Program-made: the position numbers and the translations under genes
Notes under the pieces: generated by a model
Databases searched by the model: none
Told to the model about the DNA's origin: nothing
The model's input: only the letters and a program-made list of their open reading frames with translations
In this document: positions 12,310 to 49,600 of the stretch, piece by piece
How positions within the stretch are numbered: position 1 is the stretch's first letter
How the letters are laid out: each line of letters starts with the position of its first letter
NCBI GenBank assembly: GCA_026874595.1
Contig: CM049309.1
Span: 46,778,079 to 46,842,078 of the forward strand
Source: Sipunculus nudus
Taxonomy: Eukaryota > Annelida > Sipuncula > Golfingiida > Sipunculidae
Reading direction: 5' to 3'
DNA length: 64,000 nucleotides

Positions 12310-14849
12310 AGCTCAGCTGACTATAAGTCATCTGAGCTATAGTCGTGGTCCATTGTCCGTCGTCCGTCCGTCCGTAGATGATGCACGTTTTGAAACCGTA
12401 AGACCTAGGAATCCAAAATTCGGCATAATGTTAGATGTCCCCAAGATCTCCTAAAACTAAAGCCGAAAACTGGGTCTTTGCAACTTCGTTCCTTTGAGAA
12501 ATTAAGGAAAAACCTCAATTTTTTATAAAAAAAACCTATTTTCACACTTCAGGAATGCCTAATATCAAAGCCACTCATCTGTTCTTCCTCATATTTACCA
12601 TAAATATTCCTCTATATAGTTCCTATGTACCTGCCAGAAATTATGTCTGTATTATTTAATTTAAAAAAATTATGGGCCCAAACATAATGCATTTTGTACA
12701 AAATCAGGAAAGATATTTGATCACTTAACACAAAAAATGTTAAAGCTATGGACCTTTTTTCCAGTAAAATAACTTTAAATAATTAAAATTAAATTGTATA
12801 CCCAAGATTAGAACAAAATCTTTTAAATTTTTTAAAATATTAATAAAAATAAAAAATTGGTACCTTAAATTTTGCCCAAATTTGACCATGGCACATTTTT
12901 TTCCTGTAAGTACTGTGGATTTAATTTTCACAGCATGTTTTTGTTAGCATTTCAACTGTTAACACCAAAAATTTGAAACCAGTTAATCAAAAACTGTAGA
13001 TTTTATTCAAGTTTTCAAGCACCATGTAACATATTGTTTACATCAAGCTAGTGTTATGCAGTTTGCAAGAGCCAAGCTTCCCAGCTTCAGCTCTAAGTTC
13101 CTTAAATTCGGCATACAGTTAGATGTCTCCAAAATCCCCTACCATGCCAAGAATTTGGTCACTAGGACTTAATACCTTCGGGATATTAATGAAAAACTTC
13201 AAAACCACTGATCTTACTTTAATTATAAATAATATACATATTTTTCAATCTCTATGCACATGCCAGAATGATGTCAGTATTGCGTAATTGTTTTAAGTTA
13301 TGGGCCCAAACATAATGCACTTTGTGAAAAATCAAGAAATATATTTACTCCCTTAACAAGGGCATTGCTGAAGCTAGAGATTTTTTTGTCAGGCATTTAA
13401 CATTATTTATTCAAGATTGAATTGAATACCCAAAATTAGTTCTGAATTTTTCAAATTTTATAAGTTATTAATATAAATATAAAATTAGTACCTTAAATTT
13501 TGCCCAACTGTGACCATGGCACGTTTGTTTCCCGTGACCACTGTTGATATAATTTTCATATCATGCACACATAAGGATTTCAGCTTTTTAGTTTAGAAAG
13601 CTGAAAGAAATTGCCAAAAATTGTAGCTTTTATTAATGTTTTTTATGAGACCCTGTCAGACTTTGGCTCTCTCGTGCCCCTCTTGAGTCACCTGTATTAT
13701 GCATGCTTGAGGCGAGGCATACACGGAATCCAGGCAGCTTATGGCCAGCCACAGTTGATCCAGGTGTCCAACCCAACTCATCTTGTAGTTTTAACCAACA
13801 ACATAACAATAAACAATAAATTAATAAATTTTTATTGGTTTTTAATAAAAAATTAAAGAAAAATAGAAAAGGAATTTGTTAGTTTATAATAACAGGAAAT
13901 TAACTTGCAGTTACTGATGATATAAGAATCTTGTATCGATGGGTAGAATGTCACGTATTCCAAATAACACCATGCAGTCACCTATGGCATTATTCAGTTC
14001 AAATTTTAATGATAAAGAAGTAAATCATATTATTCATTACAAATCATTAGGGATCATATGAAGGAAATTAATGATAGACAAAGATGCAGTTGATAATATT
14101 AATCTAGATTCCTACTGTGTCTAGTGTGTACATTGATGTGAAATTAGTCCAAAATGAATTTTTTACAGTTATTTTTTAAATATAAATAAAAGCCATAAAA
14201 CCAGGTACTTATGATCGTTATTTAAATGTGTGAATTTTGTATATTCTGGATTCTCAACATCATTGTTTGGTGAAAACTGAATAAATACCAGACATGGTGC
14301 GAATACTTTGTAATTGTATTTAAATACGAATATGATTATGTACTCCATTATAAAATTTCTTGCATAAAGAATGGGAATTCAGGTAAAAATGAAAGTATAT
14401 GAATACTCGTCCAAATACTTTCAAAATGTATTCATGAATGCATTCATAAATATATTCTTTAATATTATTTTAATAATCATTTCAGTTAGATTTCATTTTA
14501 AAAAATCATATAATTCTCTTATTATTTTTAATAAAAATTATATTTGGGACAATATTTGTAATTTTTTTTAATAAATAGTTAAACTCTTATTTATATGTTC
14601 TGCTCATAAGTTATATGGCCAAGTCAAAATCTGTGTGACAATAGTACTCCATTTGTTAATAAAATAAATGAAATCAATCCTCTTCCCCGTCTCCAAAAGG
14701 TACTATCAAAATCATACATAAGCTAAACAACAACAACTCATAATACAGCTTATATTTATTACCACACAAAACCAGCATTTGCCTCATTTCTAAATAATAT
14801 TTTTTTTATCATATATAACAGCTGAGCGTCGTGACCCATAGGTCCCTTG
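12310..14849 (+). mobile_element. HINE-like element 1 (Helentron-associated, non-autonomous)
   Basis: It begins in a T run with AGCTCAGCTGAC, whose arm pairs with GTCATCTGAGC across a short loop (12311-12337). A (GTCY)n microsatellite follows (GTCCGTCGTCCGTCCGTCC, about 12355-12374). The body is two tandem ~689-bp units. It ends with the inverted subterminal copy CAGCTGAGC, the palindrome GACCCATAGGTC (14833-14844) and CCTTG before TT. It shares these ends with the elements at 18341, 23221, 26509, 34153 and, at the 3' end only, 42664. There is no Rep/helicase coding. The order of parts (5' subterminal repeat, GTCY, core repeats, inverted subterminal repeat, terminal stem-loop, T-T target) matches Helentron-associated elements such as DINE-1 and bivalve pearl. 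The family assignment is by architecture only. Confidence 0.7.
12395..13610 (+). repeat. Tandem dimer of a ~689-bp unit inside HINE-like element 1
   Basis: TTCGGCATAATGTTAGATGTC at 12419 recurs as TTCGGCATACAGTTAGATGTC near 13108. Downstream landmarks repeat in order at the same spacing, including TTATGGGCCCAAACATAATGC, CACTTAACA/CCCTTAACA, CCAAAATTAG-type sequence and TTTGCCCAA..TGACCATGGCAC. Single copies of the unit occur inverted in the elements at 18341 and 23221. Confidence 0.75.
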
Positions 14850-14853
14850 TTAT

Positions 14854-16471: not shown

Positions 16472-16520
<49 letters not shown>

Positions 16521-16889: not shown

Positions 16890-17365
16890 TCTTAATACAT
16901 CGGAACGTCCCGAAATTCCAGGGTCGTCCCGCGCCTGTTCTATCCGAGTACGGCTAGATGCGTGGAGACAGTAATGTGTAGGCATGGTCGATATTTCATG
17001 TCCCATTTGCGGGCCACTTACACACTATCGCAAAATCAAGTACGACAAAGTTGTTACATATAGGCGTACAATAAAAAAACGTTTTATTTAACCTGAAAAG
17101 CAACGAATGTTTTAAGACTTGCTCAAAAGCAACCCATCATATGTGTCATATTTATTACCCAGCGTTAGCAGAGAGATTGAAACTGTGGGCTATATACCGC
17201 TGTAAAAAATAAATGAATGTGGCGTGAAAGTAAAAAAAGCATTAACCATGGAATTGAGAGCAGGTTTATGATTTTCGATCCATTCTCTGCACTGAAGTTC
17301 TGAATGGTTTCATGAAATTTAACAAACTATTGTTTATGAGACAATTTGTTGTTGTTGTTGTTGTT
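16890..17365. repeat. Paralogous segment, copy 2 (empty site)
   Basis: Counterpart of 12140-12309 joined to 14854-15105, with no element between them: the sequence passes from AATAAAAAAACG directly into TTTTATTTAACCTGAAAAGC near 17080-17102. It therefore represents the site without HINE-like element 1. It continues through TTTTCGATCCATTCTCTG and ends at a (GTT)n tract (17348-17365). Confidence 0.7.
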
Positions 17366-18340: not shown

Positions 18341-19896
18341 AGGGGGACCCATGGGTCACGACGCTCAGCTGACTGTGAAAGTTATAACTGCATCACCATA
18401 GATTTTTTTAAGTTGCAATGAAAATACTATTCTCAGTGCTTAGGAACTAGGGCTCAATGACTGGGGGGGGGGGGGGGGTGAGAGTAACAAAACCTTTGGA
18501 TATAAATACAGAATAAGGAATTAAATTCAATGGTGCTTACAGGGAATGGTGGGCCTTTACATTATCTCTGCATATACGTAAAGGATAAAATTTAATTTAA
18601 ATGAAATTATTTTTGAATATTTAAAAACAGGCAGAGAGATGGAAAACAAAGCAAATTACTTTAATTTCAATTCTACTGAGACAGGAAAATAAAACACTCC
18701 AGAATTCACATTTTTAAATTGCACCTTTATATATCCATGATTTGTTTCATATATTATCAAATTATGCTTGCTGATGGATTAAACTATATTTTGTTTAATT
18801 ATCTAACAGGAAATAATTTCTTTAAAATGCTACATCAGAGCAATGTGGCATCTCGTGGATTACTTCTTGAATTAATATTTCAAGAAAAATTGTGCACATT
18901 GGATCAAAAACAGCTTTACATTTTCAAGAAATACAGTTGACAATAACAGACCATGTATTGCAATAAAATTGGTGATGGTGGTGGTGGTGGTTAGGGGCAT
19001 TAGGGTAGGGCCCATGACAATAAGTGTATGTTTATTACAGCAGGGGTGTTCTGCCAGTGCTGCATCGCTAATAAGGTTACCTAGGCAAGGCTGTAGTGAG
19101 CAAGAGTGGGGTCTTGGATATACAAAATGCAAATACATTAGAGCATCTGAAAATGTTCAATAATTAGAATATTTTTTAGCTTTTACTTTCAAATTTCAGA
19201 ATTCTACAGATTAAATCCACATGTATCCCGGCTGTGAAAAATAAATTAAATATACTTACGGAAAAAAAAAAGTGCCATGGTCAAATTTGGGCAAAATTTA
19301 AGGTACCAATTTAATATTTTTGCTAATATTTTCAAAAGTTTAAAAGATTTTGATCTAATTTTGGGTATACAATAAAATTTGATTAATCAAAAAATATATT
19401 ACTGAAAAAAAGTACCGAGCTTTAACATTTTTTTGTGTTAAGTGACCAAATATTTTTCATGTTTTTTTACAAAGTGTAATATGTTTGGGCCCATAACTTT
19501 TATAAATTATATAATACAGACCTAATTTCTGGCATGTACATAGGAACTAAATAATGGAATATGTATAGTAAATATGTGGAAAAACAGATGAGTGGTTTTT
19601 ATATTAGGCAGTCCTGAAGTGTGAAAATAGGTTTTTAATAAAAAAAATTTAGGTTTTTCCTTAATTTCTCAAAGGAACGAAGTCGCAAAGACCCAGTTTT
19701 AGGCTTGGTAGGAGATCTTGGGGACATCTAACATTATGCCGAATTTTGGATTCCTAGGTCTTTAGTTAAACACAGGATATGATTGGGTTTCAAAGTAAAC
19801 ACTGAAAAAGTAAACACGGACGGACGGACAGACAGACGGACGGACGACGGACAATGGACCACGACTATAGCTCAGATGACTTATAGTCAGCTGAGC
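18341..19896 (-). mobile_element. HINE-like element 2
   Basis: On the minus strand it starts with GCTCAGCTGACT and its pairing arm (19870-19896), then GTCC/GTCY repeats (19806-19858). The body contains one inverted copy of the ~689-bp unit found at 12395. It ends CAGCTGAGCGTCGTGACCC with the palindrome GACCCATGGGTC (18346-18357). Both ends abut T on the minus strand. The 1.56-kb copy lacks the GGTGGCGCCACC arrays. Near its microsatellite it carries a ~46-bp stretch also present outside the element at 20249-20291. Confidence 0.7.
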
Positions 19897-21607
19897 AAAT
19901 AATGAAGCTGAAAAAATGGGGCTAAAAGCGTGTGTCTATATAATTCATGCTTATATTCATTTGTATTTTTAGAAGAATAAATTGGATAAATACTTATAAA
20001 ATTGAGGCAGACATAACATTACTATATATTTGTTGTAATAAGTTAATTACATTGCTATCTAAATAATTTCTAAGCCATGACTGCCGTCGTTCACGTGAAA
20101 TGTTTCAGTTTCTTTTGACTTCTGTAATCTTGCATGTGGACATGGATGATCAAATATTGAATTTTGATGTCGAGCTTTTCTTCATCTCGCCTTACTTTCG
20201 GGAAATTAACTCTAGATTTTAACCGAGTGATAATGTATTAGCATTTAGTTAAACACAGTATATGATCGGGTTTCAAAGTAAACACTGAAAAAGGAATTAT
20301 TCAAAGGAATTTTTGATGACCTACTACCAGGTATATGAATATAACAAGGCCTAGAGGCCTAATGCGAACATGAGCGATGGGATATACATCAGTTAAATGC
20401 TTCCATGCTTGGCCATTACTTTTCAAGTATATGTGTGACAAGTGTATGTACAGTGCAAGTACTAAACATTTTGAACCCAATTATAAGCACCAATTATACA
20501 AACGTCACTCCTAAAATACTGGCATGGATGTTCACAGTACAAAATGATTGTAGATGGCGCAACAAATGTGGTGAACGAGACAGCCGTCAAAGATGCATGG
20601 ACAGGCCAAAATTTAAGGCCGACAACTTGAAATTTCACTTGAGTCAGGTGCATTGGGCTGACCAAGCTCAGCTAAGGCAGGCAGTTGCACTAAGTCAGAC
20701 AATGCTTATTGCTAGCTGCAGTTACTGCACTGAGTGAACTCTTGACCTGTACCTGGCTGCATGGAATATCAGAATACACATTTATCTTACTCATGGATTT
20801 ATCTTACACATAACCTGGATAAGGACACTTATTATTTATGTTGCCTGTACAGCTCTGCTTATATAACCAAAGAGCTCAGTATGTTAATACAATAAATCTA
20901 CTGGCTTTGTCTACCAAAGTATCTCACAGTCCTTTCATTGTTAAAGGCCCAATAATTCTGCCAAAACATCATTGGTAAGTATACATATGAAGTTACAGCC
21001 TGATTGGCCCAGCAGGACTTGACATATCAAAGTGGCAAGGAAGTACATGTGGGAAGGTAATTAATATCCTGCACAGGTTGACCCCAAAAGTTAATCAACT
21101 TGTCAGAGGAGTACTCTCCAGGTATCGACAACGTTTTGTACAAATCACATTTACGGTTATGTTTTGAGCGCAAGCGCAAAGAAAACTGCTAGTTAAGCTA
21201 ATAAGCATAATTAAGCTTTGAGACAACTCAAAATCTAATCAAGTGTTGCCTCATACTTAGTAAGTACACATATGAAGTAATAGCCTGGTTGGCTCAGCAA
21301 ATCATGAAATATTGTTGTCACAAATGAGTGTTTGGAAGAAAAAGAAGAAGAAGAAAAAAAAAAAGAATAAGAATAACAATGCCTACAGGCCTTATACGAA
21401 CCTGTGCCATTGAATATACACAAGGTATAATGCTTCAATGCTGGACCATTACTTTTCAAGTACATGTGTAACATGTATATGACCAATGCAAATACTAAAC
21501 ATTTTGAACAAGAAAAATTACACATACAACACTGCTGAAATTCTGGCATGGAGGCACACAACACAAAATAATTGTAGCTGGCGCCACCAGTCTTTTATAC
21601 AACATAG
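19897..21607. repeat. Degenerate repeat cluster, no gene
   Basis: 20345-20762 is a ~420-bp repeat whose left half recurs at 21380-21606 and whose right half recurs at 22385-22640; the second copy is split by a 578-bp block. Shared landmarks are CCATTACTTTTCAAGTA, TACTAAACATTTTGAAC, GATTGTAGATGGCGC, GTGCATTGGGCTGACCA and TGCACTGAGTGAACTCTT. A further ~60-bp duplicate (ACATATGAAGT..AGCCTG) occurs at about 20980 and 21265. Open frames do not persist between copies. Confidence 0.55.
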
Positions 21608-22185
21608 CCGTGACAACCAAACTCAGTAGGCAATCGGATAATTAAGCTGGTAAGCTTTCTTGAGTCGTGACACAAGTGAAATCGAGGAATAATATATCGC
21701 AGTGGTCTTGCATCAGGTTACATTTATTGTGGTAAACGGTTCATAATCTCAATATTATTCCAAAATAATGAATTAACACAATAGTATACATAGTATACAT
21801 GTTAGCTCACATTTCAGACTGAAACACCGTCTCCATGGACACGACAATTTCCTTTATCGCCTGCAAGCTATGCTTGTGTTCAAGCGATCATAAATTTAAC
21901 AAACATACCGAAGGGTTTACCAACGTGCTGGGTTAAAACGGAACTTCTCGCTCGTGTTTGGTATTGTTAGAAAGTACACAAAAATGCTAACGATTGGTCT
22001 GTTTTATGTTGATTGACAGTGTACTTGTAGGCCATGAAGCGTTGTCATAAATGACAAAAATATTTGCATCTTCATAAGGCCTTATAATGCGTTCAAACTT
22101 AGATGTAATGACACGCTGGCGCCAGTGATCTGGTCGTTATGCAAGAGGGTCGATATGACGCAATGTACAAATAAGCTGTCAGAGA
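21608..22185 (+). repeat. ~590-bp dispersed block, copy A
   Basis: ACCAAACTCAGTAGGCAATC through CACCGTCTCCATGGACACG and AAATATTTGCATCTTCATAA to GAGGGTCGATATGACGC. A second copy lies at 32980-33583 in the same orientation and order. Copy A interrupts a repeat that is continuous at 20345-20762, so it behaves as an insertion. There is no ORF, no clear inverted repeats, and the entry point in both copies follows CCGT. Confidence 0.7.
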
Positions 22186-23220
22186 TATATACATATGCCC
22201 AATTTCTGACTGATATATTGAACCCCTCCTGAGAAATCAGCAGGGACATACACTTTGCAAAAATTATTGTAGGTGGCGCCACCAGTCTCGTATACGACAA
22301 AGCTATCCAATATGCATAAATATGCCCAATTTCAGGCTGATATCAAATTCCTCCGTAGAAATAAGCAGGCACTTACACTGCACAAATGTGATTGTAGGTG
22401 GCAACACCTGTCTTGTGAACGAGAAGGCCATCAAAGACGCATAGAAAGGTCAAAATATCAGGCTTTACTTCCCTTGAGTTTGATGCACTGGGCTGACCAG
22501 ACTCAAGGGAGAATGGCAGTTGCTCCGGGTGAACTGTGACAAATTGCTGGCTTAAGCTACTGCACTGAGTTAACTCTTTACCTGCACCTTGCTAGACTGA
22601 GTGAACTTTTAACCTGTACTTGGCTGCACTGAGTTAAGTCTTGATCTTTTGCATAATCTGACACAGTTGGCAGTCTGCCAAAGCTATAGATAGATCCAGG
22701 CTAAATTTGGTGCCAAATCTGATCCAGTTGGCAATAGGCCAAGCTATTTATAGATACAGACACAATCTTAATCTGTTTACACACACTGAAAATCTTTGGC
22801 TTAAATGTTTTTTGTTTAAGCGGATGCATTCATAATATTTCTTTTATAAAATATGTTTAGAATAATAAAAGATGCAGTCCATTCATTTTTAAAGGTCATA
22901 TAAATGTGCAAAAAATCATTCAAGTAAACTTGAACGAAGGCCATTTAGAATAATTTTTGTCCAATGTTAAACAAATTGAAACAACAGTTTTGCAGGAGAC
23001 TTTTGCATCCCTCAATTTAAAATAGACTTATTTATGGCCTCAAGACCAACTAAAGCTTTTTATGACTACCAAAAATCTATGAACCCAACCTATTCTTATA
23101 CAATTAAAGAAACACTGTCCCAGAACATTCTTGTGAAAATTAAACCATTCAGCTCGAGTTTCATCATAAAACATTTTAAAGCTGAAAGTGACAAAAATTA
23201 CAAGGTTCCTGGCCGTAAAA
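22186..23220. repeat. Tail of repeat cluster with two GGTGGCGCCACC units
   Basis: Two short units, at about 22190-22270 and 22271-22395, carry TGTAGGTGGCGCCACCAG and GTAGGTGGCAACACCTG and correspond to the array monomer seen at 26.8-31.3 kb. 22385-22640 is the right half of the repeat at 20345. 22640-23220 has no gene or recognised repeat. Confidence 0.5.
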
Positions 23221-26200
23221 CAAGGGACCCATGGGTCACTGTGCTCAGCTGAAGTTGACCTGGAACGTAAAAAACTAAAATAATATCAAATGGAGATAAA
23301 GTGTAAGAGGAAGAATTAATATGGGCCATGGTTTGTTTATAGGATTGGTTTGTATTGATGAGCAAGAAATTGTTGCAAATAATATTTAGTGATCTGACCA
23401 TGTGTTTTCTAATGTTAAAACTGGAGCTTGTGAGCAGTTTGTGAACAAATGATCTGTACTATTATCCATGATCATTAGTTGGCTTTTTGATTAACTGCAG
23501 CCATTTCAGAAGTTTACACATTTGTTTAATTGAATCCATTTTTTGGTATAATAGATATTATTAAATATATGTATTTTATTTTATTTTTACAGTTGAAATA
23601 TAACTAATTAACAATATACACACAAGGCAAACAAAGCCTGATCTCCAATTCTGCTGAGGCAGGAAAATAATGAACAAATGTTGGTATTAGATCCTCATTT
23701 TTTATCACATCAATTTTTTTTATTATAAGTTTATATTTCCATACATTTCCAATATAACATACATATCTGAATATAAAAACTGATTCATAATTCTAAATTG
23801 CATCATCATTAATCTCAGTCTTGTCAGATGACACAACATCATGCATACAAATGTTTATTTTTTTTACCACAAAAATATCTTTTAAATCTGCAAAACAATA
23901 AATATAAAAAAGTAATACTTGATTTAGATTTCACAATTACAATTTGTGTCTTTATTTATCCATAATGTGCTTCATATTTTATAAATTTAAGCATACTGAT
24001 GGGTTTAATTATGGGGTGGGGGGATTGGGGTGGTGATATGAAAATAACTGTACACCTCTCACAGCATTGCCCTGCCTGGGCTTTAGTATTTGCGTTTACT
24101 AATAAAATTCTTAAAATAAAACGTGATTCAATGTACCGATAGACTTAATTCAGTGCCAGCTCTTATCACTAAAGCCCTGTAAGGTCCGTATGGTGAATCC
24201 CTAATATTTGCATTTTAGGGCGTCACAAGGCTCCTGACGATTCCCTCGAATTTGCATGGCCTCATGTGAGTGGCATCGTTGCTATGAGAACGCGAACAGC
24301 GGTCTCACAGCTCGACCCCTTAATAACATTCGAATTGAAATCATGTATTCAGGTAGTCCACACATGGACCACGATTCCTATGATATATCTCTGCTGAACG
24401 AATATTACCGACCATGGTCCAAATGTAAGTGCATATTGCAGACACTAACGCAACAATTTTGTACCGACAGGTCCAGTAAAAATCCTACTTCCGAGATGAC
24501 AAGAGCAGCTGGCAGCATTTTTCTGAACCCGTTTATTAACTGTCAAATTGCGACTTGCGAATCGTGATCATTACAGTCAGCACGCACATTTTGACTGCGC
24601 TCGTCGCGTGGTGTACCTGAATATTTCGCGCTTATTGGCTGAGCCAGAGTTTGACCAACATTATGTTTAAACAGACCAACTTTCAAGAGTGGTGGTCCGA
24701 TAAACGTTAACACTGAGGCTGAGTGTAATAGTGTTTTATAAAGTCTTGCAGAACTCAACTTAAGCGAAGGCCTAAAACTATTAAGACAATTAAGTGGGAA
24801 TATTAGTAGCCAATCGGAAGCCCGGAATAAGCGATGACTGAATGAACCATGTTGGTTTTGAAAAAGACCCTGTGAAAGACCACTGCTGACGTCACTGGAA
24901 AAGACGGTGATGTGTGGCGCTGACCGTCCGGGAACCGGCCAAGATTACCAGTCTATGAAATCAGAGGGTCAGATAGTGGCAAATTAGTTATATGAGTTGC
25001 CGCAAGATGGCGGTACCGATACTAAATGCGATACAACGCGGTAACGTTTGATTTCTCTGTCACAAGCAACAATTAAGTAATAGCTTTTTCATGGACTCGG
25101 CCAGTCCAGTCACAGCAGGGGATCTCCCCAAGTAATTGTAACAAATCAGAAACCCTGGCATAGCCGACTTCCAGTGACCTGAAGTGGGACCCTGCATCTA
25201 ATCTGTAATCAAAGCAAATGACGACGATAATGCCTCAAGAAAAAAATCAATAACTAGCCTAACTAGCCAAGCTTTTATTTTCAAATTTCAGATTTAAACA
25301 AATAAAATACTTATGTTTACATGCTGTGAAAATTAAATCAATGGTACATACAGGGAAAAAAACGTGCCATGGTCAAAGTTGGGCAAAATTTAAGGTACCA
25401 ATTTTTTATTTTTACTAATATTTTAAAGAAAAATAAAAGATTTTAATATAATTTGGGTATTCAATTTAATTTTTATAAATTAAAATTATATTACTGAAAA
25501 AATTCATTAGCTTTAACACGTTTTGTGTTAAGTGATCAAATATCTTTCCTGATTTTTACAAAATGCATTATGATTGAGCCCATAACTTTTTTAAACTAAA
25601 ATACGGGTAGTCGACAAGTGACTACGTGTATCCGCCGCAACCAGAGTGGGACGGGTGAAGTGAGGCATGGATTGAGTGGCAAGGGGAAATAGAGAGATGT
25701 GTGTTGCATATTAGCATGGATGTCTGCAGCTGAAAAGCTGACAGCGCAAATTTTTTTTTATGTTATAAAGCTATCCAAGGGCTACATTTGTGAGAATTTT
25801 TTTCCTGATTGGTCAAACGAGTCCGAAGATCAGTGGATTAATGTGTCAAAACAGACAAACAGATGAACGCACTGGAGAGAGGAAAGGTCAAAGGTTAACG
25901 CAAAATATTTTGGCACCAGTTCACGTGACCCGGTAATCGTGTATAGTTTCAGAAATCTGTCCGGTGGTCTCAGAGTTCTATTCTGGAAACTAACGCAGCG
26001 GCGACTGAACCTGGTAAAAAACATAGTATCCGCAAAACTTTGTTTTAGTAGATACAGTTATATAATACAGACCAAATTTCTGGCATGTACATAGAAACTA
26101 TATAGAGGAATATATTTATGGATAATATGAGGAAAAACAGATGAGTGGTTTTGATATTAGGCAGTCCTGAAGTGTGAAAATAGGTTTTTAAAAAATTGAG

Positions 26201-26343
26201 GTTTTTCCTAAATTTCTCTAACATTTTGCTAAATTTTGGATTCATAGGTCTTACGGTTTCAAAACGTACCACATCTACAGACGGACGGACAATGGACCAC
26301 GACTATAATTCAGGTGACATAGTCTGCAGAAGTCAGCTGAGCT
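23221..26343 (-). mobile_element. HINE-like element 3, with non-repetitive interior
   Basis: The plus strand begins CAAGGGACCCATGGGTCAC then GCTCAGCTGA, and ends (GACG)n, CAATGGACCACGACTATA, degenerate arm, then AGTCAGCTGAGCT at 26343 before AAAT. The right part (25300-26270) is an inverted copy of the ~689-bp unit, itself split by an array-type segment (25600-26040) with CTACGTGTATCCGCC, AAGCTATCCAAGGGCTACAT and AAACATAGTATCCGCAAAAC. The central 24180-25160 is not seen elsewhere in the window. Confidence 0.6.
24180..25160. other. Single-copy, GC-richer island inside HINE-like element 3
   Basis: This interval has no counterpart in the other elements. It contains a full CRE palindrome TGACGTCA (24887-24894), two octamers ATTTGCAT (24206-24213 and 24250-24257) and several CpG-bearing stretches. 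The open frame at 24256-24567 has no recognisable motif. It could be a captured promoter fragment or host DNA between two partial elements. No transcript structure can be supported. Confidence 0.3.
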
Positions 26344-26508: not shown

Positions 26509-26814
26509 CAAGTGACCCATGGGTCATGACGCTCAGCTGACTGGGAAGAGATTCACAAAAGGAAATTTTATCATCAGAATGGTAGTATATACACATTCAA
26601 CTGAAGCATCAAACAGATTAACCAACAGGCCAAGATTAAGTCTGTATTTATATATCTATAAATAGAGAAAAAATGTGTAAACTTTAAAACTAGAACATGG
26701 GTAGCCCACAAGTGACTATGTGTATCCGCCAAAAACAGAGTAGAACGGGTGAAGTGATGCATGGATTGAGTGGCAAGGGGAAATAGAGTGAGGTATGTTG
26801 CATATTAGCATGAA

Positions 26815-27515
26815 TGTCTGCAGCCTGAATGTGTATGTAGGTTGTGCCACCTACTACAAATCCAGAAAGCTATTCAAGTTGTATACATATGCGAAATTTT
26901 AGGCAGAAAAGTCAAACCACTACATGTGTATGAGTGATAATAGCCCACGGCAGACAAACAGACAGACGCTGTGCAAAAATGGTTGCAGGTGGCCCCTCCA
27001 GTTTTGTGTATGATAAAGACCTATGTGAGATCTAAACACATACACAATTTTGGCCCAATCAGTCAAACGGTTCCTGAGATATGAGCTTGGATGTGTGCCG
27101 CGTTAACTAGAATTTAGGTGGCGCCACCTGTCATAAAATCAAGAAAGCTATCCAGGATGTATAAAGCTGCAAAATTTTAGGCAGTCATGTCAAACCACTG
27201 CCGGGATACGAGTGACATTATCCCATGGCAGACAAACAGACGCTGTGCAAAAATGGTTGCAGGTGGCAACTCCAGTTTTGTATGATAAAGACCTATGTGA
27301 GATCTAAACACATACACAATTTTGGCCCAATCAGTCAAACTGTTCCTGAGATATGAGCTTGGATGTGTGCAGCGTTAACTAGAATTCAGGTGGCGCCACC
27401 TGTCATAAAATCAAGAAAGCTGTCCAGGATGTATAAACCTGCAAAACTTTAGGCAGTTATGTCAAATCACTACAGAGAAATGAGTGATTTTAGGCCTCAA
27501 CAGACAAACAGACAG
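26815..27515. repeat. Dimeric tandem array, first part
   Basis: Alternating half-units open with (A)GGTGGCGCCACC or a variant. One half continues TGTCATAAAATCAAGAAAGC and the other CCAGTTTTGTGTATGATAAA. Both contain an AAGCTATCCA-like and a CTGAGATATGAG-like segment, so the halves are related to one another. Cut at 27516 by the L2 insertion and resumed at 29215. Confidence 0.8.
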
Positions 27516-31300: not shown

Positions 31301-31439
31301 ATGAAACAGACGCACAACTGGACACTGGGCAGACAGGAAAGGTCAGAGGTCAACGCAAATTGGTTAGGCACTAGTTCACATGTGACCCGATAATTGGTGT
31401 AAGTTTCAGAAAAATCGTGTTGTAGTTATTGAGATACTG

Positions 31440-32285: not shown

Positions 32286-32361
32286 TAACGGACAGACGGC
32301 CGGACGGCCGACAGACAAAGAGTGATGGCTATAGCTCAGATGACTTACAGTCAGCTGAGCT

Positions 32362-34479: not shown

Positions 34480-35290
34480 TATGTAGGTTGTGCCACCTAC
34501 CACAAATCCAGAAAGCTGTCCAAGTTGTATACATATGCAAAATTTTAGGCAGAAAAGTCAAACCACTACATGTATATGAGTGATTTTAGCCAACGGAAGA
34601 CAAACAGACAGACGCTGTGCAAAAATGTTTGCAGGTGGCCCCTCCAGTTTTGTGTATGATACAGACCTATGTGAGAACTATACACATGCAAAATTTTGGC
34701 CCAATCGTTCAAACGGTTCCCGAGATATGAGCTCGGATGTCTGCAGCTTAAACTAGAAAGTTGGTGGCGCCACCTGTCTAAAATCAAGAAAGCTATCCAG
34801 GATGTATAAAACTGCAAAATTTTAGGCAGATGTGTCAAACCACTGCCGAGATATGAGTGACATTATCCCACGGCAGAAAACAGACGCTGTGCAAAAACAG
34901 TTTTGCGTATGATAAAGAGCTATGTGATATCTATACACATGCAAAATTTTGGGCCAATCGGTCAAACGGTTCCTGAGATATGAGCTGAGATGTGATCAGC
35001 TTGAACGTGAATGTAGGTGGTGCCATCTGTCATAAAATCAAAAAGCTATCCAGGATGTATATGCATGCCGAATTTCAGGTGAATTAGTCAATTCACTGCA
35101 GAGATATGAGTGATTTTAACCCAAGGCAGATGAACAGATGGACACTGTGCAAACATGGTTACAGGTGGCGCCACCATTTTTGTGTATGTTATAAAGCAAT
35201 CCAAGGGCTACATTTGTATAAATTTTATTTCCTGATTGGTCAATCGGTTCCTGAGATATGAGGGTTTATGTGTGGAAACAGACACACAAA
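34480..35290. repeat. 281-bp dimer array in element 5
   Basis: GGTGGCGCCACC-type unit starts at about 34490 (degenerate), 34635, 34762, 35018 and 35164, with the alternating TGTCATAAAATC and CCATTTTTGTGTATG continuations. A deletion around 34900 removes one palindrome. Confidence 0.75.
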
Positions 35291-35559
35291 TGGATGCTGG
35301 GTAGAGGGGAAAGGTCAGAAGTCAACACAAATTGGTTAGGCACTAGTTCACATGTGACTAGATAATTGGTGTAAGTTTCGGAAAAATCAGTCCATTTTTC
35401 TCAGAGGAGCTCTCTGGAAACAAACGTGGCGGCGGCGGAGGAACCCGGTCAAAAAGATAGTATCTGCAAAACTTCGTTTTGGAGGATACAAAAATACAGG
35501 TGGCTCCACCAGTCTGCAGAAACTAATAAAAACACTTAATGGTCAATATCCATGCAAAG

Positions 35560-36775
35560 AATCATGGTGATCTCCGCATAAGTTGTTCAGATACTTCAGC
35601 TTTTGTATCAAATTGTCCATTGTTCTGAGGGATACTTCGGAGTCCTATAGCTTGAAGGATATGGGTAACAGAGACCTAATTTCAAGTTTCCACAGGCACT
35701 CTTCATGGGCCTCCTTGCATGACAAGAATGAAGTTTCTAGGTCTAGTTGTTGCAATTTGTACCCTGTTGACAGATAACCACATCTTTAAAGGTCTCAAAA
35801 AAAGAGAAAAAAAATTCGTAAAAATTTGAAAAAAATAGAGGTGGCGCACCCAGTCTGCAGAAACTGATGGAACAGCTCATGATAAATATGTATGCCAAAA
35901 ATCATGACCATCAGTGTTGTAGTTATTGAGATATTGAAGATTTTGTATGAAATTTTTGACTACTCTGGGGGGGGGGGGGTACTTTAGGGCCCCATAGCTC
36001 GAAGGATATGGGTAACAGAGACCTAATTTCTGGTTTCCAAGGAGATTTTTCATGGACCTTTCAGTGTGTCAAGAATTAAGATTCTAGGTCCAGTCTTTAC
36101 AATTTTTGCCTTATTAACAGATGTTCACATTTTGAAAGGTCTCAAAAATAGAGAAAAAAATTCATTAAAAAATCCAACCATACAGTTGGCGCCACCAGTC
36201 TGCAGGAAGTGATGACACATCTCATGATCAATAGTTATGCCACAAATCATGACCATCAGTCAAGTAGTTAATGAGATATTGAAGTTTTTGTATGAAATTT
36301 TTTACTTTTCTTGGGGGTACTTTGGGGCCCCATAGCTCAAAGAATATGGGCAACAGAGACCTAATTTCTGGTTTCCATGGAGACTTTCCATAGGTCTCTC
36401 AGTGTGTCAAGAATGAAGATTCTAGGTCCAGTCGTTACGATTTGTGCCACGTTAACAGATGTTCAAAAATAGAGGAAAAATCGTGAAAAAAAACGAACAA
36501 TAGAGGTGGCGCCACCAGTCTGCAGGAACTGATGGAACATCTCATAATCGATATGTATGCCAAAAATCATGACCATCAGTGATGTAGTTATTGAGATATT
36601 GAAGTTTTTGTATGAAATGTTTGACTTTTCTGGGGGTTACTATCGGGGGCCCCATAGCTCGAAGGATATGGGTAACAGAGACCTAATTTCTGGTTTCCAA
36701 GGAGATTTTTCATTGACCTCTCAGAATGTAAAGTTACAAGATTCTAAGTCCAGCGGTTACAATTTGTGCCAGGTT
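35560..36775. repeat. 339-bp tandem array in element 5
   Basis: GATATGGGTAACAGAGACC or variants at about 35657, 36005, 36344 and 36665. Spacings are 348, 339 and 321; the excess in the first reflects a 10-bp poly-G at 35968, and the last is shortened by a deletion in the middle of the unit. Confidence 0.8.
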
Positions 36776-36863
36776 AACGGACGGACAGACAGACAGACGG
36801 ACAGACGGACAACGGACAAAGAGTGATCGCTATAGCTCAGCATGACTGAAAGTCAGCTGAGCT

Positions 36864-40900: not shown

Positions 40901-43900
40901 AATATACATTGAGTTTATGTTTTTTCAGAAATATAAGCATATCTCATAATTGTAGAATCTTCATAGGTTGTCAATCTTGACAAGCGTAGTATATATAGAT
41001 ACGTATATAAGAAATAAAAACAGTACTCCATGACGGATGTTTTTATTTTCTAATTCACATTAATCATAACAATATCATATACGCAGTTTGTTATAACAAA
41101 ATACTTACTGAATTATAACAAGTCCTCCAAACATTAAGGTCACATTGTATCTTTACCCTCTGTCACCGTTATTGATTTGACAGTCCGACAGCCTTGCAAT
41201 CTGACGTAAATTAGCGTATTACATTAAGTGTCGGATTATCAAGTCATGACTGTACTAGCTGATAAACCCGGTATACCGGGGTTTTTACCGGAGTTTGGGA
41301 GATATATTTACTGAGATATTGAATGTTGGTTCATTTTTTATTATAAAAGTTAAAAGAAAATATAGATTTTAAGTGGGATACTCTCGGAATACAATATGTA
41401 CAAATATTTTTTTTACTGTTATTTTGTGGCGCTGTGCTTGTGGCAAAACTCATACCCCAGTATGTTTACCTTGAAGACCTGGTCAGTGATGGTTTACATT
41501 GCGAACCGGAATGAAACGCCGAGGCATACAGTGTTTCGTTGATATTTGACTGGTTTATGTCGTAGGGCGTATAAAGAATAGGTTGATGAGAGGAACACAT
41601 GAAAAATTAAATTAAATGTGCGTTGCTAGGAAACTGTTCCTGAAGAAGGAAACAGAAATATGCATACATCGTAAGTAGCAGAAGCAGATCCATGCAGTTG
41701 GTCTGTATCCCATTTTCAACCACCGCAACCTTTTTCATCGTAACAGACAAATTTTGAGGCCTGAAACCCCCACCACCACACCCCAGCCCTGTTCCTGAAA
41801 TTGGGACCTTGAATAAGTTTTGTCATTAATCCTCCTGGCTTGTACTCTCAATTTCATAAAGCGAGAAACAGGTGTTTTTCTCTTTTACTGACCACGCATG
41901 TAGGTCAATTCCCTCATTGAAAGCAAGCGTTATTCATATGAACAAAGGTCCTTAGTGTTAGAGGTTAAGTGACCACGATACATGCATTCCGGTAATTGCC
42001 CAAGGCAGTTCGGCCATGCTCGGTAAAAAAACGGAAAAATCACTCAAAATTATAAGTACATTAAAAATTATTTATTTTCATATCACCTATGTCACTGCAG
42101 GGATAATAACCTTTCAAATGATGTATGGCACAATATTGTAAACAACGCGGTTTTAGGGAACATTGCGAACAAACGTCAACCGAATTCCTTTTATAAGTAT
42201 TAGATAGTATTTTTATCACAAGCAGGAGGGGGGGGGCATGTGCCACCCCACTCATTCCCCTTGCATCTGTGCCTGGCTCTTAATGAAACCATGTGTGATC
42301 ATTACTTAAAATTCAGAACCAAAATGAAAATACAGGAATGCTTAAGAATAGAAGAAATTACAAAGAGCCTGCTTACAAATTCTGAGGCCATTCCTTCTTT
42401 CACTAGTTGTTTCATCTCTGCTGTGTTCTTCTTTTCCTCCTCTGCATCTTCTATCTGCAAAGAAAGGAAAACATCAGTCCACCAATAGAATACTCACAAG
42501 GTCCACTCCCCATCCAAAAAATTTAACCTTTAATTTTAGCCACATTTATCCTACTTTAGACACATTCTGTGTTAGTTTAGTCACGGTATTATTTTAGTTT
42601 AGGATAGTAATCCTTCCCTAAAACACATTACTTTTACATATTTTCATGTCCCATAAATATAAACAAGGGACCCATGGGTCACTGTGCTCAGCTGAACAAC
42701 ACCTCTCCATATACATACTGGACATGAAATTTAATTCAATATTATTTTTTTTAGCTCAAAACTGTGCTAACATTCTATTATGATCAAATGATACTGTATT
42801 TTATAGTGTCATCCAAGTGACCGAAAGGTAGCAGTAATTCCACAGTCTGCCACATTATTCCAAATCATGTCTAAAGTCTAAATTTTTGCAATTTTTATGG
42901 TGAAAACGCAAATTCATGGAATTAATGTCCCCCACTTAGGGTTCTGTCTTTCATGCTTGATAAGCAACTAAGAAATTAGGATGTGGAGAAATCTTGAGGG
43001 CACATATCAACTTAAACTCAAACATTTGGAGACATCTTCAGGTGACCATAAAAACTAAAACAAATTGAGAACTAGAAAACACATTGAGAACTAGAATACG
43101 GGAAGTCCACAAGCGACTACGTGTATCCGCCAAAATCAGAGTGGAAAGAGTGGCAGGGATTGAGTTGGAAGGGGAAATAGAGTGAGGTGTATTGCATATT
43201 AGCATGGATGTCTTCAGCCGAAATGTGTATGTACGTTGCGCCTCCTACAACAAAATCTAGAAAGCTGTCCAAGTTGTATACATATGCAAAATTTTAGGCA
43301 GACAAGTCAAACCACTACTGAGTTAGGAGTGATTTTATCCCACAGCAGACAAACAGAAAGACTTGTGCAAAAATGGTTGCAGGTGGCGCCCCCAATTTTG
43401 TGTATGATTAAGAGCTATGTGAGATCTATACACATGCAAAATTTCAGGGTGGCTATGTCCAACCAGTCCTGAAATATAAGCCTGAATATCTGCAGCGTTA
43501 ACATAAATGTAGGTGGCGCCACCTGCCAAGAAAAATCGAGAAAGCTAGCCAGGATGTATAACCCTGCAAAATTTTAGGCAGATATGCCAAACCACTGCCG
43601 AGATAGGAGTGATTTTATACCACGGCAGACAAACAGACAGACGCTGTGCAAAAATGGGTCAGGTGGTGCCACCAGTTTTGCATATGATAAAGAGCTATGT
43701 GGGATCTAGACACATGCAAATTTTCAGGAAGATACGTCAAACCAGTCCGGAGATTGAAGCATGGTTGTCTGCAGCGTGAACATGAATGTAGGTGGCACCA
43801 TCTGTCATAAATTAAGAAAGCTACCCAGGATGTATACGCATGCCGAATTTCAGGTCAATATGTCAAACCACTGCAGAGATATGAGTGATTTTAACCAAAG

Positions 43901-46900
43901 GCGGACAAACTGATGGACACTGCAAACATGGTTGCAGGTGGCACCATCATTTTTTGTGTATGTTATAAAACTATCCAGGGACTACATTTGTACAATTTTT
44001 TTTCCTGATCGGTCAAATGGTTCCCGAGATATGTGGGATTATGTGTGGAAACAGACGCACATATGGATGCTGGGCAGAGGGGAAAGGTCAGAAGTCAACG
44101 CAAACTAGTTAGGCACAAGTTCACATGTGACCTGATAATTGGTGTATGTTTCGGAAAAATCAGTAAAGTAGTCTCATAGATCTCAGGAAACTAACGCTGC
44201 GGCGGCAGTGGAACCCGGTCAAAAACATAGTGTTATGGAGTGAGAAAGGGTGTATATGTGACTTAACACATATTTAAAGGAATATTTCAATATTTCATTA
44301 ATTAAGATCTAAAATCATTCAGAAACAATAAAAATCAATTAAGGTTTCAGTCTGTTCTGATATTCAGACAGAGCCAAAGAATTATTAATGGTTCATCAGA
44401 CGACCAAGTATCTAATGGCAATTCAGTATGTTTTTAGAGCCTAAATGTACTCTCCAAAATTAGCTCTAAATTGGTTTCTATGATGAGGCAGGCAGATTAT
44501 GTTTATACGAGTTTTGAAATAGGACTTGTAGGTCAGTCTATAACTGGATGTATGTCAGGTCAGACTTGGGATTTTCCATGGAACTTTTGTCGAATCAGAT
44601 CTCACGAAAGTGAGGAGGAACACTTACAACTCTGATGTAATTGTGACCTACTTTGGGTCATCCAATAAGGTTTAGCTTTTATGACGAAATGCAGAAATAT
44701 GGATATGAATGTCTCATATGTCACGTGAAAGCTGTGTAACAAAACTATCTGTAGTGCGCGCTGAGAGTCAGAGAGAGATTCAGGGAGGCTGGGCGGCTCT
44801 CTCAGAGAGAGAGACTGCCCCAGACCGCTTGCTATTGAATAAAGGCTTCTGTCATCAAACTGGTCTTGGAACATTGTCTGCTAGCACATCAACAACCGTA
44901 TGTGATACAGTGTGGGGACATCCCCAACCCCACATTGTATCATTTTGGTGGAGAATCCGGGTACTGTATCATTTTGGTTGATGAACTGGGATTCACTTCC
45001 AGCACATCAGCACCAGAAAAACCGACAATGCTGCCAGTTGGAGTGAAGACAGAAGATCCCCCTCTTGCAGCCACAGATGCCATTGACTGGTCTACCAACC
45101 CATGCATTGGAACTACAACCCTGGTACCGGATCACAGCCTAACATCAAGAATGTCATCTCTGCTGCTGAAGGTATAAAACTTTGCTAAGAACTCTCTCTT
45201 CAAACTTTAACTTGGCTGCAGTTTCTCAGTGCTCTGCTTGAGAAGATCAAAGACTTTCTCTGTATCTTTAAACCAAAAGGACACTGTAATCAGCATATTG
45301 CTTTAACAGTGACTTTAAGTTGCAAAAACGATTTTTTTCACTTCAAAAAGTGCTGTGAAATCTCAACCTGAGATCATCATTGTTTCGGACCAGCCACACA
45401 AAAAAAAATCAATATCGGGACAAGCCAGCTTCAGGCCTATGTCAACAATACTACTGGCAATACCACGTGCACTGTGTGTTATCTCACAACAAGTTCCTCG
45501 CTATGTTCCTGCAACTACCAGAAGCAGATTCGTCGTTCTACCACTTTCTTCTGCATCACCTTCCATACCATGACACCAGAAAGAAAAAAAGAAGCCAAGT
45601 CAGCAGAGAAGACCACAGACGACCCAAAGAAGACAAGATTTCCTGAGGTAATGAACCATAAACCAGAGACTCTGAATTTTAAATACCCAATGTAAAATTT
45701 GGGGCATTTCAGAACATTTTGCATGTATATGTTGTAAACAAAAAAAAATATGTATGTAGTACACTATAACTTTCTCTTATTGATGTGTCATAGTTGTAAC
45801 ATGATATAATTTAATGTCTCTTTCTTATTGATATGGTTAGGAATAAGTTTACAAGACCACAGCAAAAGGCGTAGAACTGTCAATATTAGATTTGATCAAG
45901 TTATGTCTATCTCAGATGTTTATATGTAATGTCACCAAAATGACTGTATTGATTTAAATACAATAATTCCTAGAGTAGAGCAATATGCAAAACCATCAGC
46001 ATGTTAGCATTCATTTATATTGAGATTTTCTCATGTGTTGTTCCATACCAAATCAACAGGTATCGAAATGCTCTCTTGGCTATAAATTTAATGGAATGGT
46101 AGCACATTGTGTCACCAAAGCACAATGCGATGCTTATTTTCAATTGTCACAGTTTGGTCCTCAAACACGGTTTCATTGGAAGCCCCCCAATATATAGGGA
46201 ATTGGACAAACTGGGGAGTGTGATTACTCCAAAAGTCAATAATGCACTGACCTGTGGTCACATTATTGCCTCAAACAAGGGTTTGATTTGGTTAACCTCA
46301 TTAATAGCTGGACATGCCAGGCAAGATATGTAGGTTAGCACAGGAATTCTTCTCATAGGAATTCACATTCACGCGTACTATGACAGACATGTTTCATGAG
46401 CAAATGCATTCTGGTCACTGCATTCATGATACTGATAACCCATAAACCAAAATGTGGGGTGACAAGGATTTCAAGCATTAACATTTTTCATTTAATTTTA
46501 ATCATCACTCTACAGATGTATGTTTGATCTTACACATAAATAGCATGCAATAAAATTACCATCAAAATCCAATTGGTCTGGATCAATGCATGCACCTGTC
46601 AGAGATTTATTTTCATTATCATTACATTTTCACACAACTTTCGCCTTGTTCATGCACAAAAAATGGTAATCAATGGGAATATACGTACAACATTCCTCTG
46701 TCGTTAGGAATGACATCATTCTGTCATGTACTTATCCGCTGGTAAGGTACACCAGTTGTGTTTTGCTAAAGGAGTAGCAAATCAACCTTCCATTATTCAC
46801 AATTCAACTTGTCCCTATGGCAAGCATGTCAGCCAAGATGTATTTTGAATCATTGGTACTGATCAACACATTGTTACCAAATCACTTGTCATATAAGGAA

Positions 46901-49600
46901 TCCATTATCCATTTCTCAATGGAAATATTTTGATTAGCTACAGGTATAGACTAATGTCAGGCATTGTTAGCAAATCGCTTGTCATTTTTTTAAAATGCAT
47001 ATTGCTGTTCGACAGAACATCTTTATGTATCATCACTTACTGTATGTTCAAATGGTTCACATACTTTGAATTATTCCATTGCTTACATGGTATGCCTAGT
47101 ACTTGTATATTCTAGCTGTGCATTCATTATGAACATGATGTTATACTCATATCTATTAAGATATTTATTTATTAATTCTATTTAGATGTGTCATACTTAC
47201 ATCTGAAGTTTTAATGCTTATATTAGGATGTCAAATAATGTCATCATGGTTGCGATGTTGTTCCTGATTTTACTATAAATCAGCATTTTATCTTCTAGAT
47301 AATGTTTAGGATTGTCCATTCACAAAAAAAGAAATTCTGTGTTAGTTAGCATATATGTGTAGCTATAGATTCATATATGCTGTTTCTCAGCTTATTAAGC
47401 TTTAGCTTAGGCATTGTAGTACTGCTCCATAAATTTAAAACATGCACTACTTTATTCCTTACACTGTTACATCTGGAAATGTGACATGTTCATGTATTTC
47501 ACATCTATATTGATCTGTGTAATTCCATCACAACCTACATCAGTGATGTAATACTTTACTCTCTACAGACATATATCCAACACACTGTCACTAGTGCCAG
47601 CAAGTTCATTCACATAATGTATTTCTGTCATCTGTATTCCGATTATCCTTATTGAAATAACTCATTTTTCTCTGACTTAGCCCATGAGGCCGGAGCCTCA
47701 TTCTGAATACCAGAGGGATATGTTATGGAGTGAGAAAGGGTGTATATGTGACTTAACACATATTTAAAGGAATATTTCAATATTTCATTAATTAAGATCT
47801 AAAATCATTCAGAAACAATAAAAATCAATTAAGGTTTCAGTCTGTTCTGATATTCAGACAGAGCCAAAGAATTATTAATGGTTCATCAGACGACCAAGTA
47901 TCTAATGGCAATTCAGTATGTTTTTAGAGCCTAAATGTACTCTCCAAAATTAGCTCTAAATTGGTTTCTATGATGAGGCAGGCAGATTATGTTTATACGA
48001 GTTTTGAAATAGGACTTGTAGGTCAGTCTATAACTGGATGTATGTCAGGTCAGACTTGGGATTTTCCATGGAACTTTTGTCGAATCAGATCTCACGAAAG
48101 TGAGGAGGAACACTTACAACTCTGATGTAATTGTGACCTACTTTGGGTCATCCAATAAGGTTTAGCTTTTATGACGAAATGCAGAAATATGGATATGAAT
48201 GTCTCATATGTCACGTGAAAGCTGTGTAACAAAACTATCTGTAGTGCGCGCTGAGAGTCAGAGAGAGATTCAGGGAGGCTGGGCGGCTCTCTCAGAGAGA
48301 GAGACTGTCCCAGACCGCTTGCTATTGAATAAAGGCTTCTGTCATCAAACTGGTCTTGGAACATTGTCAGCCACCAACATCAGCAACTGCTTGTGATACA
48401 GTGTGGGGACATCCCCAACCCCACCTTTGTATCATTAGTATCCGCAAAAATTTGTTTTGGCAGAAACAAATAGGACCAAAATGCACTATGACATGTGGAG
48501 ACATCCCTGGGCCAACAAAATCTAAAGACATTGAGAAATTTGACCAAAATCTGATCATTTTATTTTGAACTGGAGAGAATTAGTTTTCAGATACACCTTC
48601 CAAAACCAATCCCAACCAAGGTATGCATGAGAGCAATCACTGACCAAAATTTGTATAATCAGATAATGTTTAGAAAAGTTATATGGAGATGAAAATCTGA
48701 AGAACGGACAGACAGAGGGAGGGACAGACAGCAAACCCAAATCCATGTCCCCGATTTCCACAGAAGCAGGGGACTATAACAAGTGCTTAAAGACATTTTC
48801 CCATTAGCCATTATGGTAGAACTTAAGTTTTTGCTAATGGTTATATAAGGCCAACAGGCCCTGTTTAACTCCCAGTGCTGTCCACCTTAGGTACTGCATA
48901 CATGTAACAAATCTTACAAGGACACCAAAGCTGTAGCCAAAAGCATGCAGACCACACAACAATGCAACTGATTCCTCTCTTAATGTTTATGATTAATTTG
49001 TCATATAAATTTAAAGCAGTTAATCAAGAGCACTCATCTGTAAAGTTTGTTGGTATACATGATCTGTTAAATGATACATTCTTTAAATAATCAGTGCAAT
49101 TAATCTTTCCTGAACTGACTGTGGCTCGTCTGTAAAATATGTTGGTATACATGATCTGTTTAATGATACATTCTTTAAATAATCTGTGCAATTAATTTTT
49201 CCTGCACTGACTGTGGCTATTCCAAGTGTTATTTAGGTGAAGGTTCAAATCTCAGTTCCAAAAGTATACCAAATTTATTTGATATAACTTACCCAACTAG
49301 CATGTTATTTACATGGTCAAAATATAGCCAATAATATGGCAAATTCATCTTCAGATGTGATTAAAGTGCTAAAACAATTTCAAAGTACAATCCAGTGCAC
49401 ATTTATGAAAGTACCTTCACAGATTTGATAAACCATAGAGTTGCATAATTAAGTCATTCCAACGGAAACCTATTTCAAGTTCAATTGATACAATCAGCAA
49501 GATCAGATACGGCACAACTCACCTTTCCCTGGATATCTGGTAAGAGACTCTTAAATTTCCTTTTCTGCTTTTGTTATTGGATCCTCAAAATCAATTGGAT
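37921..49600 (-). CDS. NASP: NASP-like histone chaperone, C-terminal exons (partial)
   Basis: Five minus-strand exons are visible: 49523-49600, 42377-42454, 39664-39714, 38759-38803 and 37921-38295 (stop at the end). The last four exons begin and end in phase 0 with canonical AG/GT sites. They read SLLPDIQGK-IEDAEEEKK, then STTTGFGESSSS, then ASDITHLVRRK and KKPEDEDEKKPEEE. This matches the C-terminal part of NASP, a nuclear SHNi-TPR chaperone for H3 (and linker histone): the KELLPEI..KIEDA helix, TSGF and the DISHLVRKKRKPEE nuclear localisation motif. The tail is a Glu/Lys/Pro-rich low-complexity repeat (EKPTEKPET). The first exon opens in frame as DPIDFEDPITKAEKEI and then meets TAA; the SLLPD frame is offset by one. 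No TPR exons were found upstream to 64000. It could be a partial copy, a gene with distant 5' exons, or a real gene with a sequence error. Confidence 0.75.
37960..38160 (-). repeat. Coding tandem repeat in the NASP-like tail
   Basis: Degenerate 30-bp unit coding for EKPTEKPET-type decapeptides (four copies), followed by shorter KSETEKSE units. The opposite strand also stays open through it, which explains long spurious frames there. Confidence 0.8.
39785..39960 (-). mobile_element. Degenerate SINE (family of 15106)
   Basis: CTTGGACGGGCCACTGAACCC and CTCATGGCTACATTGGGAATC on the plus strand match the body of the SINEs at 15106 and 53906, but the B box has decayed. Lies just outside the NASP-like exon at 39664-39714, within the intron. 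Confidence 0.5.
40116..41252 (+). mobile_element. pogo/Tigger-like DNA transposon, internally deleted
   Basis: Ends CAGTCGTGACTTGACATTC and ...TCAAGTCATGACTG are inverted repeats, flanked by TA on both sides (40114-40115 and 41253-41254), as in Tc1/mariner-pogo elements. CAGT ends are typical of pogo/Tigger. Further inside, both arms repeat CTTG(C/G)A.TC.GAC-like motifs. An open frame (40488-40757) with ADIVSMVKEDGGDSDSESEG and a terminal PKPVTLRDTIGEIETGLRYI resembles the acidic C-terminal tail of Tigger-type transposases. The DDE catalytic core is missing. It lies in a NASP-like intron. Confidence 0.75.
40488..40757 (+). pseudogene. Remnant C-terminus of pogo-like transposase
   Basis: About 89 codons. 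The stop at 40757 is followed in the same frame by further protein-like sequence (GFAAGDVDFDRLERSVKMKK), so the stop may be a mutation. There are no DDE residues and no N-terminal CENP-B-type DNA-binding domain. The product would not be an active transposase. Confidence 0.5.
41253..42376. other. Intron of the NASP-like gene, no other feature
   Basis: About 1.1 kb without recognised repeat. A 10-bp poly-G lies near 42227. Confidence 0.5.
43220..44030. repeat. 281-bp dimer array in element 6
   Basis: Units begin at about 43230 (degenerate), 43382, 43511, 43662, 43789 and 43936, with GGTGGCGCCACC or one- to three-base variants and the two alternating half-unit types. Confidence 0.75.
44231..44942 (+). 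repeat. 5' LTR
   Basis: Nearly identical to 47721-48434. I see a single C/T difference across the first ~640 bp (at about 44818), but several substitutions and a two-base length change within the last ~70 bp. Confidence 0.9.
47721..48434 (+). repeat. 3' LTR
   Basis: Direct copy of 44231-44942. It is preceded by the purine tract CAGAGGGATA and ends CCTTTGTATCA before the resumed HINE-like sequence. Confidence 0.9.
48779..49522. repeat. Intron with a two-copy 92-bp tandem repeat
   Basis: TCTGTAAAGTTTGTTGGTAT at 49037 recurs as TCTGTAAAATATGTTGGTAT at 49129. The second copy ends about 49214 with GACTGTGGCT. The rest of this interval shows nothing recognisable. Confidence 0.75.

Follow-up and report, generated by a model that had tools for sequence, protein, structure and literature searches.

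HINEs, the non-autonomous elements of Helentron type, are known from several animal genomes by the order of their terminal parts. In DINE-1 a subterminal inverted repeat (subTIR) is accompanied by an adjacent inverted repeat, and a stem loop lies at the 3′ end; the DINE-1/Helentron/HINE group is further characterized by a microsatellite and a TT target that is not modified on insertion (PMC4067079, Thomas et al. 2014). The published rules place HINEs with 11 bp of identical subTIR in one family, and those with 80% identity over the last 60 bp in one subfamily (PMC4067079). Cg_HINE of the Pacific oyster has an 11–12 bp 5′ subTIR, a complementary inverted repeat, a GTCY microsatellite, satellite-like arrays, a 3′ subTIR and a palindrome (PMC7492417, Vojvoda Zeljko et al. 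2020). Some of the oyster elements contain two arrays, for which recombination, junction fragments and filler insertions were left side by side as alternative origins (PMC7492417). In the bivalve pearl elements (Gaffney et al. 2003, according to PMC7492417 and PMC5139131), central repeats form short arrays flanked by an end module on each side.

Here we describe elements with a similar plan in a 64-kb window of AT-rich eukaryotic DNA, on which all counts below rest. The window contains six elements of one family (family 1, elements A to F), with A on the plus strand and B to F on the minus strand, amounting to 17,351 bp for A to E and the 3′ part of F. They are very probably non-autonomous Helentron-type elements moved in trans, with a second family nested in some of them and a composite of the two mobilized in D and E. 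The features are as follows.

12310–14849, plus strand: element A, family 1, complete; 5′ subTIR, arm and GTCY at 12310–12373, 3′ subTIR and palindrome at 14819–14844
16954–17329, plus strand: diverged paralogue of the A target without an element (empty site), from local alignment with the joined flanks of A
18341–19897, minus strand: element B, family 1, complete; shared ends, 82% identical to A over 12305–12934
23221–26343, minus strand: element C, family 1, complete, with a nested family-2 copy; shared ends, self-BLAST
25596–26057, minus strand: family-2 copy of 462 bp in C, with little of the array remaining; empty sites in A and B
26509–32361, minus strand: element D, family 1, with a ~340-bp array, a partial family-2 copy and a LINE fragment
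26690–31416, minus strand: family-2 copy in D lacking its 5′ end, with ~280-bp array, split by the LINE fragment; junction with the ~340-bp array at 31416/31417
27519–29210, minus strand: LINE fragment in D; reverse-transcriptase ORF 27832–29262 (RVT_1, E 2.1e-27)
34153–36863, minus strand: element E, family 1, composite, with a ~340-bp array and a complete family-2 copy
34336–35490, minus strand: family-2 copy in E, 1155 bp, within a T run of a ~340-bp monomer
35491–36770, minus strand: ~340-bp array of E (family 1, D/E type); TRF array 35489–36770
42664–44230, minus strand: 3′ portion of element F, with the family-1 3′ end followed by family 2 from 43091 on
44231–48436, strand not assigned: LTR-type insertion in the family-2 copy of F; direct repeats 44231–44944 and 47721–48436
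48437–48468, minus strand: family-2 5′ end of the F copy, beyond the LTR-type insertion; 87.5% identical over 32 nt to C 26025–26056
48469–48779, minus strand: possible 5′ remainder of F with a GTCY-like stretch; 5′ end not established

Termini and insertion sites of family 1

The 3′ end reads CAGCTGAGC-N4-TGACCCATRGGTC in all six elements, that is, CAGCTGAGC, a 4-nt spacer, a T and a palindrome. It lies at 14819–14844 in A, and the minus-strand ends are at 18341 (B), 23221 (C), 26509 (D), 34153 (E) and 42664 (F). The palindrome is GACCCATGGGTC in five of them and GACCCATAGGTC, with one mismatch, in A. A common 3′ terminus had been proposed in a first-pass annotation of this DNA, and it is borne out in six of six elements; 100 first-order Markov windows contained no 3′ motif, no 5′ 12-mer and no palindrome. 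The terminal CMCTTG that the annotation ascribed to all six is present in five, B ending in CCCCCT. The common 5′ terminus that it ascribed to five elements is found in A to E, which begin with (A/T)GCTCAGCTGAC, continue with a pairing arm (weak in C) and run into GTCY repeats; AGCTCAGCTGAC is exact in A, C, D and E (four of five), and B has TGCTCAGCTGAC. Its placing of the F boundary at 48778 is at best tentative: F has no AGCTCAGCTGAC end, and TATAGTCCCC...GGGGAC with a GTCY stretch starts at 48779, beyond the LTR-type insertion. Past 48468, F resembles the other elements in short GTCY-like stretches only.

The 5′ arm pairs except at one mismatch, which is identical in A, B and D; E regains the lost pair through a one-base bulge, and in C the arm has decayed. 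As DNA, the hairpin folds at −9.2 to −11.6 kcal/mol in four of the five elements, with no shuffled sequence as good, and C folds weakly (−2.7 kcal/mol, 116 of 200 shuffles as good). The 3′ palindrome folded alone is weakly stable, at −1.8 and −2.8 kcal/mol, within the shuffles. Between the two ends, the subTIRs pair over 11 bp in B, D and E, 10 in C and 9 in A; HINEs are expected to have subterminal inverted repeats of ~11–15 bp, and family 1 has such repeats. In each of the five elements, the 5′ and 3′ subTIRs taken as separate strands pair more strongly (−13.6 to −15.3) than the 5′ subTIR does with its arm (−6.2 to −12.7); it is only an idea that the ends might switch between these pairings. 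By its subTIR, family 1 is a single family, and by interior and 3′ end it comprises several subfamilies; a single pair of 3′ ends out of 15 (D/E, 93.3%) reaches the 80% set for a subfamily. Within element A, part of the 5′ interior is present a second time (12416–13642), diverged to 72–76% identity and without the terminus.

All five readable 5′ flanks end in TT and all six 3′ flanks begin with TT, which agrees with the annotation that every readable end stands beside T; at a mean TT/AA frequency of 0.107, TT at all 11 ends has a chance of ~2e-11 if the ends are independent. Similarity between elements ends within ~6 bp of the termini (A/B 12305/19902; D/E 26507/34151 and 32367/36869). The filled A site reads GTTTTTTT-element-TTATTTACCTG and its empty counterpart GTTTTATTTAACCTG, so that the only duplicated bases are Ts; the annotation had named target-site duplication as evidence against its reading, and at this site there is none beyond the Ts. 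The empty site is old, ~80% identical on the right: the right flank matches at 79.8% over 262 columns (14850–15108/17084–17329), and the left flank has a 48-bp block at 81% and contains gaps next to the junction. For B to F, a comparison with flanks of 600 bp gave no empty site in the window that matched on both sides.

Inverted repeats at both ends could also belong to MITEs mobilized by a DDE transposase, in which the inverted CAGCTGAGC would serve as the terminal inverted repeat, and pearl elements were indeed originally named MITEs, according to PMC7492417. In family 1, however, the 3′ repeat lies 22 nt inside the end and a palindrome follows it, and no duplication beyond Ts is present at the A empty site or where family 2 entered C, which makes this origin extremely improbable. 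A HINE family, as the annotation proposed, is upheld by the order of parts, the TT flanks, the common termini in unrelated flanks and the empty site. The combination of 5′ hairpin and 3′ palindrome, which the annotation thought possibly novel, is already in print for DINE-1 and Cg_HINE and is therefore not new. Family 1 is thus a new HINE family built on a known plan.

Family 1 shares with DINE-1, the Helentrons and other HINEs its subTIRs, the inverted repeat at the 5′ end and the stem loop at the 3′ end, the microsatellite, and insertion at TT without target modification (PMC4067079). It resembles Cg_HINE in every part listed above, including the two-array elements; this likeness is one of described anatomy (PMC7492417). 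The 3′ subTIR lies 22 nt from the end in family 1 and 31 nt in family 2, against 38–60 bp in mite HINEs (PMC4067079). The pearl repeats, at ~160 bp according to the descriptions cited above, differ from the ~280-bp dimers and ~340-bp units here. A search of full-text literature with the terminal sequences gave no transposon paper by title among the matches listed.

Most likely, a Helentron Rep/helicase(/endonuclease) moves the elements in trans. It would nick at the 5′ subTIR, copy by rolling circle, stop at the 3′ subTIR and palindrome, and insert the product between T and T with no target duplication. We infer the enzyme, the rolling-circle steps and the Helentron partner, whereas anatomy, boundaries, empty sites, nesting and the composite common to D and E are seen in the sequence itself; the rolling-circle scheme is carried over by analogy from the canonical Helitron Helraiser, for which a 3′ hairpin as terminator and circles have been demonstrated (PMC4778049). 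No Rep/helicase was found in the 23 of 48 ORFs of at least 70 aa from the elements and the LTR-type insert that were scanned with Pfam. The sole match above cut-off among these 23 is the RVT_1 of the LINE, and matches below cut-off (best E 0.008) were disregarded.

A second HINE-like family inside the first

The annotation took each element to be a single unit. This does not hold for C, D, E and F, four of the six, which carry copies of a second HINE-like family (family 2) that had been missed. In a self-BLAST of the window, a segment of C is absent from A and B at one point, and in D, E and F the same segment borders the ~280-bp array. In element orientation, its 5′ end consists of TGTATCCTCCAAAAC, a short loop and GTTTTGCGGATAC or a near variant; it is present in three of four copies (C 26057, E 35490, F 48468), D having lost it. 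Its 3′ end consists of TTTTGGCGGATACA or close variants, then GTAGTC-N7-GACTAC, then CCGTATTCTAG, then TT (C 25596, D 26690, E 34336, F 43091; four of four). The subTIR is TGTATCCKCCAAAA. GTAGTC-N7-GACTAC is exact in C and altered in D, E and F, and the 19-nt palindromic stretch ends 11 nt from the terminus. The terminus itself, CCGTATTCTAG, is varied to TTAG in C and to CATGTTCTAG in D, and CTAG is present in three of four. With up to 6 mismatches the 3′ pattern occurs four times in the window, always inside family-1 elements, and never in 50 simulated windows. Minimum-energy folds are weak, with the 5′ arm paired as expected in E only (not in C or F) and the 3′ stem formed in C only (not in D, E or F). 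Judged by its order of parts, family 2 appears HINE-like, with termini of its own.

The insertion sites of family 2 can be read in C and E. A and B run through the C site (TATTTAATTTAAAA, TATATAATTTATAAAA), and no duplication is present. E reads CCACCTGTATTTT-family 2-TTTTTAAAGTTTACACATTTTTTCTCTATTTTTGAGA and the monomer at 32017 reads CCACCTGTATTTTTCGATTTTTTACGAACTTTTTTCTCTATTTTTGAGA, so that the sister ~340-bp monomers are empty sites for the E copy; a run of at least 5 Ts occurs in two of the five other monomers compared (32017, 35840). The base before the 5′ end is T in E and F and C in element C, and for this reason the site in C alone can be read as an insertion between A and T.

That reading of C, together with the CTAG ends in three of four copies and the 19-nt palindromic stretch 11 nt from the end, brings family 2 nearest to canonical Helitrons, which have 5′ TC, 3′ CTRR and a target between A and T. 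The likeness to Helraiser in the 3′ hairpin near the end and in CTAG is set against the subterminal inverted repeats, 5′ arm and T-T flanks found here (PMC4778049). Family 2 has inverted subterminal repeats and is preceded by T in E and F; family 1 contradicts the canonical type by CTTG in five of six, T at 11 of 11 flanks and inverted repeats. It is improbable that the elements are canonical Helitrons.

Composite elements and a probable origin of double arrays

In D, E and F the ~280-bp array is part of family 2, which explains the origin of one of the arrays. Its unit is a dimer of ~130- and ~150-bp half-units, both of which contain a GGTGGCGCCACC-like palindrome. Half-units of like type in D are 78–96% identical, except for two at 29230 and 29518 (60–71%), and unlike half-units are 50–57% identical. 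Of the 41 GGTGGCGCCACC-like palindromes in the window (up to 2 mismatches), 35 lie inside the elements.

D and E share one family-2 3′ junction together with the family-1 tail (88.6% over 991 columns). Both contain the ~340-bp array and are bounded by family-1 termini, outside which the two sequences are unlike. One common nested insertion within unrelated outer flanks indicates that the composite moved as a unit. The two elements stand on the same strand, 1.8 kb apart, as copies from a local segmental duplication without composite transposition might, but their similarity stops at the family-1 termini on both sides and the outer flanks differ, and such a duplication is very unlikely. By the simplest account, family 2 would have inserted once into the D/E ancestor, and the whole would then have been moved by the family-1 ends. 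C and F carry their family-2 copies in other surroundings and so represent separate insertions. Family 2 was thus inserted into family-1 copies at least three times among the four elements: in C, in the D/E ancestor and in F.

For the two-array elements of oyster, models have been proposed in which recombination or filler repair leads to the exchange or capture of an array segment (PMC7492417). Applied to the ~280-bp array, such a model would have to produce the same two segment ends in C, E and F and an insert that is clean against A and B, and it is accordingly rather doubtful here. Under transposon insertion, family 2, carrying its ~280-bp array, would enter family-1 copies, and the family-1 ends would then mobilize the D/E composite as a whole, giving elements with two unrelated arrays. 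On balance we favor the view that two-array HINEs arise in this manner, by insertion of one HINE into another and subsequent movement of the composite by the outer ends, a route by which arrays could change carrier and spread.

The locus differs from Cg_HINE, as described in PMC7492417, in that a second HINE-like family nested in the first is the source of one array. Nesting of HINE in HINE as a source of double arrays was not found in the literature consulted; a 2025 review comes close, as it already mentions elements that have received parts of Helitrons and single elements with different arrays (PMC12628747), and the present case is for that reason a worked example rather than a new principle. 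Besides adding a HINE family, this single window shows the assembly of a two-array HINE with its empty sites, the nested insertion and two copies of the composite. If true more generally, nesting would be a route for satellite arrays to switch carrier and spread through the genome.

Later insertions and other features of the window

Two further insertions interrupt the elements. The LINE in D has array sequence on either side, and the first codons of its ORF run into the array. This ORF yielded no endonuclease domain, and the LINE is therefore taken as 5′-truncated. The reverse-transcriptase ORF was also considered as a captured Helentron gene, an interpretation that was dropped because it sits between array halves like a LINE insertion. 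The LTR-type insertion in F has 0.7-kb direct repeats that are 98.5% identical over 716 columns, and an interior of 2.8 kb. LTR elements make 4–6 bp duplications; the flanks CATAG and TTAGTATCC, compared with the uninterrupted CATAGTATCC of C, fit a 4-bp duplication with one change. Three ORFs of the insertion have no Pfam match above cut-off, so it is possibly non-autonomous.

More repeats lie between the elements, at 20341–22643 and 32362–33581, and are perhaps relics of other HINEs. Within them, 21611–22183 matches 32986–33581 at 78%, and 125-bp tandem repeats with the GGTGGCGCCACC palindrome (22189–22443) are 58–67% like the half-units of the ~280-bp array. Scans of the window with Rfam and for tRNAs gave no match, and a scan of viral contigs with the 3′-end pattern likewise gave none. 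In a collection of genome contigs, the pattern matched a single contig (L001, a Clostridiaceae MAG), in which no HINE parts were seen by eye in 601 bases; with a rough chance expectation of 0.06 in the collection, this match is most likely due to chance.

A separate reverse-transcriptase fragment is located at 3862–4437 (RVT_1, E 2.9e-16). A 93-nt stretch occurs twice, 5 kb apart, at 50194–50286 and 55156–55246, with 97.8% identity. Finally, 58318–58674 contains a homeobox exon of TALE type (Pfam Homeobox_KN, E 1.7e-9), which looks TGIF-like, with a weak continuation at 59104–59631.
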